Source: Dysgonamonadaceae bacterium
Lineage (GTDB): Bacteria > Bacteroidota > Bacteroidia > Bacteroidales > Azobacteroidaceae
DNA: 36,398 nt
NCBI GenBank assembly: GCA_031260045.1
Contig: JAIRKO010000030.1
Location: 1-36,398 of the forward strand
Reading direction: 5' to 3'
Below are positions 6,061 through 12,937 of this stretch, in pieces (the stretch's first letter is position 1; each line of letters opens with the position of its first letter). Made by a program: the position numbers and the translations under genes. A model generated the notes under the pieces. The model made no database searches. It was not told the DNA's origin and saw nothing but the letters and a program-made list of their open reading frames with translations.

Positions 6061-7668
6061 ATGGAATACAATTTCAAGGAAATTGAAAAAAAATGGCAAG
6101 CCTTTTGGAAAGAAAACCATGTTTATAAGGTAAAACCGGACACGAGCAAACTCAAATTTTATGTGCTCGACATGTTTCCCTATCCCTCCGGCGCCGGTCT
6201 GCATGTCGGACATCCGCTCGGCTACATCGCCTCCGATATTTATGCGCGTTACAAACGGTTGAAGGGTTTCAACGTCCTTCACCCCATGGGTTACGACGCT
6301 TACGGACTGCCCGCTGAACAATATGCCATCCAAACCGGACAGCATCCCGCAATCACGACGGAACAAAACATCAAACGCTACCGCGAACAGTTGAACAAAA
6401 TCGGCTTCTCGTTCGACTGGGACAGGGAAGTGCAAACCTGCGACCCGAAATATTATAAATGGACGCAGTGGGCTTTTATCAAAATGTTTCATTCCTATTA
6501 TTGTTACGATGCAGGGCAGGCGCGTCCGATAGAGGAATTAATCAAAGCATTTGAATTGCGAGGAACAAAGGATTTAAACGTCGCCTGCACAGAGTCGCTG
6601 TCTTTCACTGCCGAAGAATGGAACGCCAAGCCGGAAAAGGAAAAACAGGAAACGCTGATGAATTATCGCATCGCTTATTTAGCCGATACGATGGTCAACT
6701 GGTGCGCCGATTTGGGTACGGTTTTGGCTAACGACGAGGTTAGCGAGGGGCTTTCCATACGCGGCGGCTATCCGGTGGAGCAGCGCAAAATGCGACAGTG
6801 GTGTTTGCGTATTTCCGCATACGCGCAACGTTTGCTCAACGGGCTGGACAAAATCGACTGGACGGATTCGTTGAAGGAAACGCAGCGGAATTGGATTGGG
6901 CGGTCGGAAGGGGCGGAAATACGCCTCCTCCACTCAGAAGGAGGGGAAGAGGTGATAGTTTTCACCACGCGCCCCGACACCATCTTCGGTGTAACCTTCA
7001 TAGTCTTAGCCCCCGAATCGGAATATGTCCCTCGGCTCGTAACCCCCGAACAGCAACCGGAAGTAAATGCCTACCTCGAAGCCGTCAAACGCCGCACCGA
7101 ACGCGAACGCATTGCCGACCGCAAAGTTACCGGCGTTTTTTCGGGCGCGTATATCATCAATCCGGTGAACGGCGCAAAACTTCCCGTCTGGATTTCCGAT
7201 TATGTGTTAGCCGGTTACGGGACGGGGGCGATTATGGCTGTTCCCGCTCACGACAGCCGCGACTATGCTTTTGCCCGCCATTTTAACCTGCCCGTCATTC
7301 CGCTGATTGAAGGCGCTGACGTTTCGGAAGAAAGTTTTGATGCCAAAGAGGGACGCATGATGAATTCGGGCTTTCTAAACGGATTGACCGTCAAGGAAGC
7401 GATTCAAAAAGCCAAAGAATATATCGTAGAAAACAATCTGGGAAAAGTAAAAATCAATTACCGCCTGCGCGATGCGATTTTCAGCCGCCAGCGTTACTGG
7501 GGCGAGCCGTTCCCGATATATTACAAAGACGGGATGCCTTATGCCGTTGCCGAAGAAGACCTGCCCATTGAATTGCCCGAAGTGGACAAGTTTTTGCCTA
7601 CGGAAACGGGCGAGCCACCGCTGGGGCGGGCGAAAAACTGGGTGTATGAAGAGCCGGGTTGCGAATAA
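6061..7668 (+). CDS. leuS: Leucyl-tRNA synthetase, N-terminal half (HIGH and editing domain)
   Basis: This 535-residue frame encodes the front part of class I leucyl-tRNA synthetase, which charges tRNA-Leu with leucine. Visible are the HIGH-type motif HVGH at 48-51 in [18 protein letters not shown], and the CP1 editing domain with TTRPDT at 302-307 and [17 protein letters not shown] at 385-401. These remove mischarged amino acids. The post-editing catalytic motif [10 protein letters not shown] is at 476-485. The protein stops after [14 protein letters not shown], in the loop before the conserved block [17 protein letters not shown], which lies in a second gene at 8117. An intact bacteroidal LeuRS is about 920-945 residues; the halves sum to 925. 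There are no internal stops or frameshifts, so it is probably expressed as a subunit. Confidence 0.93.
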
Positions 7669-7683
7669 TATGCTATTTATAAA

Positions 7684-7894
7684 TGGAAAATAAAAACAAA
7701 CAATCCTTTGCTTGTGACAATCGTGTCGCTGATTGACAACGCCTGCCGCAAAGTAGCCGTTGCCGTCAATAGCGAATTGTCGGTTTTGTATTGGCATATC
7801 GGCAAACAGATTAACGAAAGTGTGTTGAATAATGAAAAGGCGGATTACGGGAAAACAGTCGTGAAGGAATTAAGCGCAGAATTAACAAGGATAT
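7684..7894 (+). pseudogene. DUF1016 (YhcG-type nuclease) N-terminal fragment inserted in leuS
   Basis: In the frame of 7708 the translation reads LVTIVSLIDNACRKVAVAV, then SELSVLYWHIGKQINE and NEKADYGKTVVKELSAEL. This is the hallmark start of the DUF1016_N domain found before PD-(D/E)XK nuclease domains in YhcG-like proteins. Similarity ends near residue 62; the frame then runs into the palindromic repeat at 7971. No ATG precedes it, only a TTG at 7708, and the nuclease domain is absent. I call it a gene fragment carried into leuS with the repeat, not a working gene. Confidence 0.7.
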
Positions 7895-7970
7895 TATGGT
7901 TCCGATTTTATTTCGACAGGTTCAACCTACAGAGTGCAAATCTAAGGTGTCAAATGAGGCGGTTTCAAAA

Positions 7971-8065
7971 GCCCGTCATCCCGTGCTTGACGCGGGATCC
8001 CCTGCAAAACAAGCTGCGGTTTTCGGGAGATTGCGGATCTTCGCTTCGCTACGCCCGCAATGACG
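7971..8065. repeat. Dispersed palindromic repeat family B, complete copy (B1)
   Basis: It begins CGTCATCCCGTGCTTGACG, contains the hairpin CCCGTGCTTGACGCGGG and ends GCCCGCAATGACG. The outer arms are imperfect complements. The same layout appears at 12834-12918. It forms the right-hand part of the insertion that separates the two leuS frames. Confidence 0.8.
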
Positions 8066-8116
8066 ACGACTTTTCACTAAAAACAATAACTCACCATAAA
8101 AAAAATAAAACATAAA

Positions 8117-9289
8117 ATGAAAAAAAAGCACCCCCTCGAACTAAACACCATGCCCGGTTTCGCCGGCTCGTCTGCATACTATTTGCGCTACGAAGACCCG
8201 CACAACGACCGGGCGCTCGTTTCCCAAGAAGCCAACGTCTATTGGGGAAACGTAGACCTGTATGTCGGCGGAACGGAACATGCCACCGGACACCTGATTT
8301 ACAGCCGTTTTTGGAACAAATTCCTGTACGACTTGGGCGTTACGGCAAACGACGAGCCGTTTCAAAAACTGATTAATCAGGGAATGATTCAGGGACGGAG
8401 CAATTTTGTGTACCGGATTAAAAACAGCAATACGTTCGTTTCTTTCGGCTTGAAAGATCGCTACGACGTAACGCCCATCCATGTCGACGTTAATATGGTT
8501 TCCAACGACGCGCTTGACTTGGAAGCCTTCCGAAACTGGAATCCCGAATACAAAACCGCCGAATTTATCCTCGAAGACGGCAAATATATTTGCGGCTGGG
8601 CGGTCGAAAAAATGTCGAAATCCATGTTCAACGTCGTCAATCCCGACGACATTATTGAACGTTTCGGAGCCGACACTTTGCGACTGTATGAAATGTTTCT
8701 CGGTCCGGTGGAACAGTCCAAACCTTGGGATACTAACGGGATTGACGGCGTTGCAAGATTCCTGCGCAAGTTCTGGAACCTGTTTTTCCAAGGCGGTGCA
8801 TTCGCCGTTTCCGACGAGCAGCCCACGCCCGAAGAATTGAAATCCATACATAAGCTAATCAAAAAAGTGGGGCAGGACATTGAAAATTTCTCGTTCAACA
8901 CTTCCGTCGCCGCATTCATGATTTGCGCCAACGAACTGACCGCCCTGAAATGCAACAAACGCGCCGTGCTGTCTGATTTCGTCGTCGTTTTATCGCCATT
9001 CGCCCCGCATATTGCCGAAGAATTATGGCACAGGCTCGGAAATGACACAACCGTTTGCGACGCGGTATTCCCTGACTATAACGAAAAATACCTGAAAGAA
9101 AACACGGTGAAATACACGGTTTCTTTCAACGGGAAAGTTCGTTTTACGATGGATTTTCCGGCAGATGCGGCAAAGGAAGCCGTCGAAAAGGCGGTTTTAG
9201 CCGATGAAAATTCACAAAAATGGATGGAAGGGAAAACGCCCAAAAAGGTGATTGTTGTGCCGGGAAAGATTGTGAATATTGTTGTTTGA
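8117..9289 (+). CDS. leuS: Leucyl-tRNA synthetase, C-terminal half (KMSKS and anticodon-binding domain)
   Basis: A 390-residue frame that continues LeuRS. It opens [19 protein letters not shown], of which only MKKK is new. It has the zinc-free core block [16 protein letters not shown] at 51-66 and the leucine-specific region. The KMSKS motif is at 165-169, and the C-terminal helical anticodon-binding domain includes [13 protein letters not shown]. The last domain ends with a beta segment ([13 protein letters not shown]) that contacts the tRNA in bacterial LeuRS. The frame differs from the first half. Its ATG at 8117 sits in an A-rich stretch, as is usual for starts in this phylum, so independent translation is plausible. 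With the first half it would make an alpha-beta LeuRS. Alternatives are a recently inactivated gene with another leuS elsewhere, or an assembly join. Confidence 0.92.
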
Positions 9290-12833: not shown

Positions 12834-12937
12834 CGTCATCCCGCGCTTGACGCGGGATCCCCGAAAAAACGAACTGCGGTTTTGCGGGGATTGCGGGTCT
12901 CCGCTTCGCAGTTCGCAACAAGTCTATTGCGAACTGC
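12834..12937. repeat. Dispersed palindromic repeat family B, copy B2, with extra inverted repeat
   Basis: It starts CGTCATCCCGCGCTTGACG with the perfect hairpin CCCGCG-CTTGA-CGCGGG and continues GGGGATTGCGGGTCTCCGC. At its right end GCAGTTCGCAA and TTGCGAACTGC form a second perfect inverted repeat around CAAGTCTA, a core also seen in repeat family C (16533, 31281). Confidence 0.8.

Follow-up and report, generated by a model that had tools for sequence, protein, structure and literature searches.

Two adjacent open reading frames on a contig of a Dysgonamonadaceae bacterium (GenBank assembly GCA_031260045.1, contig JAIRKO010000030.1) each resemble one part of a leucyl-tRNA synthetase (LeuRS), which raises the question of whether they are the remains of a broken leuS gene or the genes of an enzyme that consists of two chains. 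The window, that is, the whole stretch of DNA that was analysed, is this entire contig of 36,398 bases (C45 of the genome that we call G000; 1.99 Mb in 57 contigs, 81.6% complete). Its nearest relatives are presumably metagenome-assembled genomes from termite guts, and we take the genus to be Azobacteroides-like. Comparison of the locus with related genomes makes us confident that the two frames encode a working leucyl-tRNA synthetase of two subunits. In such an enzyme, the N subunit would bring the HIGH half of the active site together with the editing domain and the C subunit would bring the KMSKS half as well as the anticodon-binding and C-terminal domains, and the active site would be complete only upon association of the two chains.

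Results

Two reading frames together make up one LeuRS

A first-pass annotation, made from the letters alone, had described two frames of 535 and 390 residues, separated by 448 bp, that jointly form one LeuRS, and this is confirmed by the coordinates (Table 1) and by the coverage of the 843 positions of TIGR00396, of which leuS-N accounts for 1-471 and leuS-C for 475-842. The absence of internal stops and the distribution of motifs were also described correctly: the profile matches both frames without an internal stop, HIGH (as HVGH, aa 48-51), RQRYWG (aa 476-481) and the Pfam editing domain PF13603 are located in leuS-N, and KMSKS (aa 165-169) and the anticodon-binding domain PF08264 in leuS-C. 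The curated TIGR00396 cut-off of 548.4 was exceeded by the N half, which scored 598.6 bits together with its neighbours in the frame, and the C half alone reached 318; by motifs, both domains and full coverage of the model, the pair belongs to the bacterial leucyl-tRNA synthetases. The genome was also checked for another leuS, and the profile search of the G000 contigs (1.99 Mb, 81.6% complete) found none. The other class I matches in G000 were valyl-tRNA synthetase (ValRS, on C3) and isoleucyl-tRNA synthetase (IleRS, on C12), the frames of which are intact, and one short match on C18.

Table 1 Features of the split leuS locus in the window
Feature	Position	Strand	Description
leuS-N	6061..7668	+	535-aa N subunit of LeuRS, comprising the HIGH half of the catalytic fold, the CP1 editing domain and RQRYWG; C-terminal end of 21 residues (not shown)
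LeuRS editing domain PF13603	6886..7422	+	Pfam match, aa 276-454 of leuS-N
Spacer	7669..8116		448 bp between the subunit genes
DUF1016_N (YhcG-type nuclease) remnant, truncated	7720..7932	+	PF17761, E 3.2e-14; residues 5-75 of the frame at 7708-8112 match profile positions 2-70 of 137
Copy of a dispersed ~100-bp repeat	7959..8074		Nearly all of the spacer's 41 further matches in the 1.99 Mb genome are to this stretch
A-rich leader ahead of the second start codon	8078..8116	+	No TAnnTTTG box within 60 nt
leuS-C	8117..9289	+	390-aa C subunit of LeuRS, comprising the other half of the catalytic fold (with KMSKS) and the anticodon-binding and C-terminal parts; start of 19 residues (not shown)

The same break occurs throughout the genus

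We searched 45 genomes of the family for leuS; 38 of them, including G000, represent the genus, and in these the junctions were read. Within the genus, leuS turned out to be split at the same loop in 21 of the 38 genomes, intact in 13 and undecidable in 4 (G007, G012, G018, G061). Both halves were present in 14 of the split cases (G000, G001, G004, G006, G008, G010, G017, G019, G022, G026, G027, G030, G033, G058), while in four only the N junction and its stop were recognized (G011, G024, G029, G060) and in three only the C junction, which has its own start (G002, G009, G031). The intact genes, some of which are cut further out by a contig end, run across the junction in G003, G005, G013, G014, G015, G016, G020, G021, G023, G025, G028, G032 and G059. 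Six of the 7 other family genomes carry an intact leuS and one (G066) is undecidable. An intact and a split leuS side by side were found in none of the 45 family genomes searched, and five of the split genomes with both halves (G010, G058, G017, G008, G027) are 90-98% complete.

The distance between the halves varies widely. They share a contig in 6 genomes, with stop-to-start gaps of 39 bp (G033), 448 bp (G000), 1.2 kb (G030), 1.7 kb (G001), 2.5 kb (G006) and 11.5 kb (G058), and lie on different contigs in 8 genomes. In two of the latter (G017, G022) a contig end is close to the halves, which may therefore still adjoin; in five (G004, G008, G010, G026, G027) at least 2.6 kb of contig extends on the broken side of each half, so that any gap there must be longer.

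Both halves are under strong purifying selection. Among the 16 pairs compared by the Nei-Gojobori method, those that include a split genome and have unsaturated dS gave a ratio of nonsynonymous to synonymous substitution rates (dN/dS) of 0.04-0.11 in both halves, and the intact pair G015-G016 gave 0.07; four pairs, 3 of them intact, were saturated in one or both halves. This is the comparison across relatives that the first-pass annotation had named as a check on its suggestion of a functional two-subunit enzyme, and the suggestion is supported by its outcome, by the lack of a second intact leuS and by the recurrence of the split. With no intact copy alongside and both halves under purifying selection, the locus has the properties of a natural split synthetase.

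The break lies in a loop of variable length

At the junction, 11 of the 13 intact genes of the genus read RAK[ND]W[TN]Y[KN]GYP and the other two have longer linkers. The corresponding parts of the window are a 17-residue stretch of the N half (not shown) and MKKKHPLEL in the C half. This arrangement recurs among the split genes: in N halves W.Y is followed by 2-10 residues to the end in the 19 genomes read, with the exception of G058, where the frame runs on for ~208 residues, and the 22 C halves read (genomes outside the genus included) have M plus 3-10 residues ahead of [YFH]PLEL. The supposition that about 20 loop residues had been lost is not borne out, as the window is complete in comparison with the 13 intact genes of the genus, and a gap is apparent only against Bacteroides-type genes, which have a longer loop.

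Aligned with the LeuRS of T. thermophilus (1h3n), the N half extends up to residue 461 and the C half starts from residue 495, a region that we take to precede the leucine-specific domain. The break is thus situated ~164 residues ahead of KMSKS, in the loop preceding TMPGFAGSS, between the HIGH and editing parts on one side and KMSKS on the other. In the intact leuS genes of the contig loci L218 and L247 this same loop contains in-frame repeat-like peptides (judged by eye), and it therefore tolerates insertion; the break lies in a length-variable loop that accepts insertions in relatives.

Two observations concern in-frame additions to LeuRS. In L144 (G024) and L284 (G073), a DUF559 nuclease-like domain (matched by Pfam in both) is inserted in frame in the editing region near residue 290, beside a repeat-like peptide. 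At L115:2817-5045 (G058), the ~208 extra in-frame residues of leuS-N have no Pfam match and are followed by a type II methyltransferase gene, so this may perhaps be a half-synthetase fused to a restriction enzyme.

Separated C halves often have a promoter box

The -7 box consensus given for Bacteroidetes is TAnnTTTG (PMC7366714). Of 22 split genomes, 9 have it no further than 60 nt from the ATG of the C half, where mononucleotide shuffles predict 0.73, and at the corresponding position of intact leuS it is present in 0 of 19 cases (20 loci given, 19 located); many C-half genes thus carry a promoter box of their own. In other species the halves reside at different loci, the C half often with its own box.

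Foreign DNA separates the halves in several species

The spacer of the window looks like decayed cargo, consisting of the DUF1016 remnant and the repeat copy. Another copy of the repeat is present in the window at positions 12834-12909. The first-pass annotation had attributed the split to an insertion, which cannot be the 448-bp insert as it now stands because the split is common to many species. The gaps in other genomes contain a full YhcG/DUF1016 gene (G030), an 11.5-kb island with a type II methyltransferase, a DpdE/ZorD-like helicase, YhcG, RhuM and DUF5655 (G058), a DUF3843 gene (G001), a weak match to a 23S intervening-sequence protein together with other genes (G006), or no cargo (G033). 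DUF3843 genes are also found downstream of the N half in G022 and upstream of the C half in G019, a pattern that would fit the break-up of a former N-X-C block. Further neighbours are RhuM downstream of the N half in G318, an IS200-like transposase downstream of the N half in G010 and a phage integrase near the N half in G004.

The two ValRS pairs that share a contig (G005, G026; see below) both have a full YhcG gene between their halves, so that YhcG/DUF1016 or its remnant occurs in 5 of 8 same-contig gaps (6 leuS and 2 valS), namely leuS of G000 (remnant), G030 and G058 and valS of G005 and G026. The interpretation of the loop as an insertion hot spot with YhcG cargo is based on these eight gaps as examples. 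Foreign DNA, often with a YhcG/DUF1016 nuclease gene, lies between the halves in several species, and in G000 just the decayed remnant and the repeat are left of it; the nuclease gene may itself be the selfish agent of the cut.

Fission, exchange and possible re-fusion of leuS halves

The leuS trees imply 11 state changes for N (64 rows) and 10 for C (63 rows), and the rpoB tree (48 rows) implies 12, of which 9 are forced by well-supported branches. One single vertical fission was rejected, as it conflicts with the rpoB tree. The strongest competing account treats the loop as a hot spot for some 10-14 separate cuts of leuS during vertical descent, with little horizontal transfer. Without re-fusion, the rpoB tree indeed calls for 14 fission origins, 11 with G020 set aside and at least 10 after weak branches are collapsed; with all lineages included, the approximately unbiased test rejects a single clade for the split sequences (p-AU 7e-7 for C and 0.039 for N, four long-linker rows left out), and ValRS and IleRS are split too. 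Within the family, however, once G020, G032 and G005 are left out, the 17 split C halves group in a single clade (support 85) and a single clade is compatible with the N halves (p 0.55), and horizontal exchange of halves is seen. If G005 is kept and only G020 and G032 are omitted, one split clade is rejected for C (p 0.002) and not for N (p 0.205). Many independent fissions within the genus are thus not required by the leuS trees with these three genomes left out, and we consider such repeated cutting rather unlikely. We favour a few fissions that would have spread by horizontal exchange, subunit by subunit, because the family-only leuS trees allow one split clade after removal of the three.

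Several pairs of genomes illustrate this exchange. The dS of the two halves is discordant between G006 and G058 (0.64 for N, 0.21 for C) and between G004 and G026 (0.34 for N, 1.14 for C), and in the leuS trees the N half of G010 groups with G006/G058 and its C half with G005/G027. A 492-bp tract in the gene upstream of leuS-C is 98% identical between G004 (L119:5690-6181) and G026 (L131:5173-5664), and a very similar stretch runs on into the start of leuS-C, which likely reflects recent recombination. Changes in the opposite direction may have occurred as well: the intact leuS of G020 has a long linker that resembles joined split ends, is placed among split genes by both trees and looks re-fused, and that of G032, which only the N tree places there, may be re-fused, an unsplit intermediate being the alternative for both.

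In a wider set of 80 contig loci, 6 have a free-standing C half (L194, L196, L197, L246, L249, L270; by length and position, L194 and L196 correspond to contigs of G022 and G017), and the remaining 74 are continuous across the junction. Sampling of the whole order covered 295 genomes, 278 of them with a match, and a frame near 400 aa was present, among the matches listed, only in G000 and G318. By group code and rpoB (82-83% identity to G124/G227), G318 belongs to a different family. For its N half, identity is 83.6% with one member of the window's family and 69-71% with its own family, whereas its C half is nearest, if only slightly, to its own family (73.3% vs 72.4%), with which the C tree also places it (97). 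This suggests a LeuRS of mixed ancestry, with a foreign N half and a native C half. The split form is common to many species of the genus, and halves have been exchanged horizontally, sometimes singly.

Other class I synthetases are split as well

ValRS is split after WWGHxIPxYY, with both halves in G005, G008, G009, G026 and G065 and the N half only in G007 (45 family genomes; loci L334-L343); G005 was counted as split because numerous stops separate its halves. The break in IleRS is at DLT/SVHL, with both halves in G008 and G033 and the C half only in G009 (loci L344, L345, L355-L357), and its C-terminal gene (a frame of 272-288 aa) is on another contig in both G008 and G033. The TAnnTTTG box precedes 3 of 3 IleRS C halves (expected 0.04) and 2 of 5 ValRS C halves (expected 0.21). 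At the IleRS break site, G000 has the repeat-like peptide PPAPPKGER. Since ValRS and IleRS are split in some relatives, leuS is not unique in this respect, and the best reading of the present LeuRS would be that it is one of several split class I synthetases. That long genes tend to break in general was rejected by an rpoB control: of the 40 family genomes with an rpoB match, 35 have the whole model in a single place (one of them, G068, with an internal TAA) and the other 5 are cut at contig ends.

Discussion

Some points weigh against a working two-subunit LeuRS. All split genomes are draft assemblies (57 to 420 contigs, where the number is given), the function of the enzyme is deduced here from sequence, and the C half in the window lacks a TAnnTTTG box in the 60 nt upstream of its ATG; it is probably co-transcribed with the N half. 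The AlphaFold monomer models, for which Foldseek found LeuRS with both halves, are mediocre, with a predicted local distance difference test (pLDDT) score of 67.6 and 71.6 from shallow alignments of 36-40 sequences. Their confidence is low at the parts expected to make contact, which are the HIGH region and the tail in N and, in C, the KMSKS region and a large share of the initial ~95 residues, a pattern that is weakly informative with so few sequences.

An assembly or binning artefact, or a dying pseudogene with the true leuS in the missing part of the genome, could be suspected given that G000 is only 81.6% complete in 57 contigs and that a dispersed repeat, a usual cause of misjoins, is present in the insert. 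Yet the identical break is found in 21 genomes of the genus, both halves are located on contigs of 29-138 kb in G004, G006, G008, G027, G033 and G058, and the halves show purifying selection, their own start codons and, at many C halves, promoter boxes; the suspicion is largely refuted already, and we consider it very improbable. That the frames, adjacent and on the same strand in the window, are decoded as one protein through a self-splicing intron, an intein or a ribosome bypass over the spacer can be dismissed almost entirely, as Rfam gave no match across 7500-8300 at E 1 (by which a self-splicing or structured RNA in the insert was rejected), the spacer consists of the DUF1016 remnant and the repeat, and the halves are on separate contigs in eight other genomes. 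A maintained two-subunit LeuRS is supported by sequence conservation and selection, and the enzyme would function as such.

In Aquifex aeolicus, HIGH and the editing domain of LeuRS are on one chain and KMSKS is on the other. This alpha-beta enzyme of two subunits (Xu 2002 and Ma 2006, as cited in PMC3436685 and PMC4975002) resembles the present case in being a bacterial LeuRS of two chains from two genes. Its break is assigned to the leucine-specific domain by the title of Ma 2006 and to a tRNA-binding domain site by PMC4975002; these wordings are consistent with the remark in the first-pass annotation that it lies further along, and by that title the break described here is set apart as earlier. 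Our case differs further by the phylum, by the occurrence of split and intact genes among close species, by the cargo between the halves and by the exchange of single subunits. The split pheT described for Altiarchaeales (PMC4975002) is likewise a natural fission of an essential synthetase in a variable-insertion loop, with halves on different contigs and a deduced function, but it affects the class II beta subunit of archaea and is presented there as a character defining a candidate order, without intact relatives mixed in. In Mycoplasma pneumoniae, the essential synthetase subunit PheT appears functional after a promoter-bearing transposon has cut its gene, as reported in PMC12494982, which concerns an artificial insertion and a different enzyme. 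Among the literature matches listed from the open-access literature there was no described case of a split LeuRS, ValRS or IleRS in Bacteroidetes, and we found none there in which closely related split, intact and possibly re-fused forms occur together.

More widely, half-synthetases of termite-gut Bacteroidales might be regarded as exchangeable parts, an idea for and against which we see equal weight. It holds that the editing class I enzymes LeuRS, ValRS and IleRS were cut at insertion-tolerant loops, often by YhcG/DUF1016 DNA, that many half-genes gained promoters and moved apart, that single halves were replaced horizontally between families, that chimeric enzymes such as that of G318 work and that some genes were re-fused (G020, G032). 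Examples in print of an essential synthetase divided between the two halves of its active site seem to be rare, and annotation may label such split genes as truncated. The break sites are natural split points for the engineering of LeuRS, ValRS and IleRS. What is new relative to the known two-subunit LeuRS is an unusually rich natural series of split, intact and possibly re-fused genes, which makes it testable how a one-chain enzyme turns into an obligate two-chain complex, whether this step is reversible and whether halves can be swapped between species.

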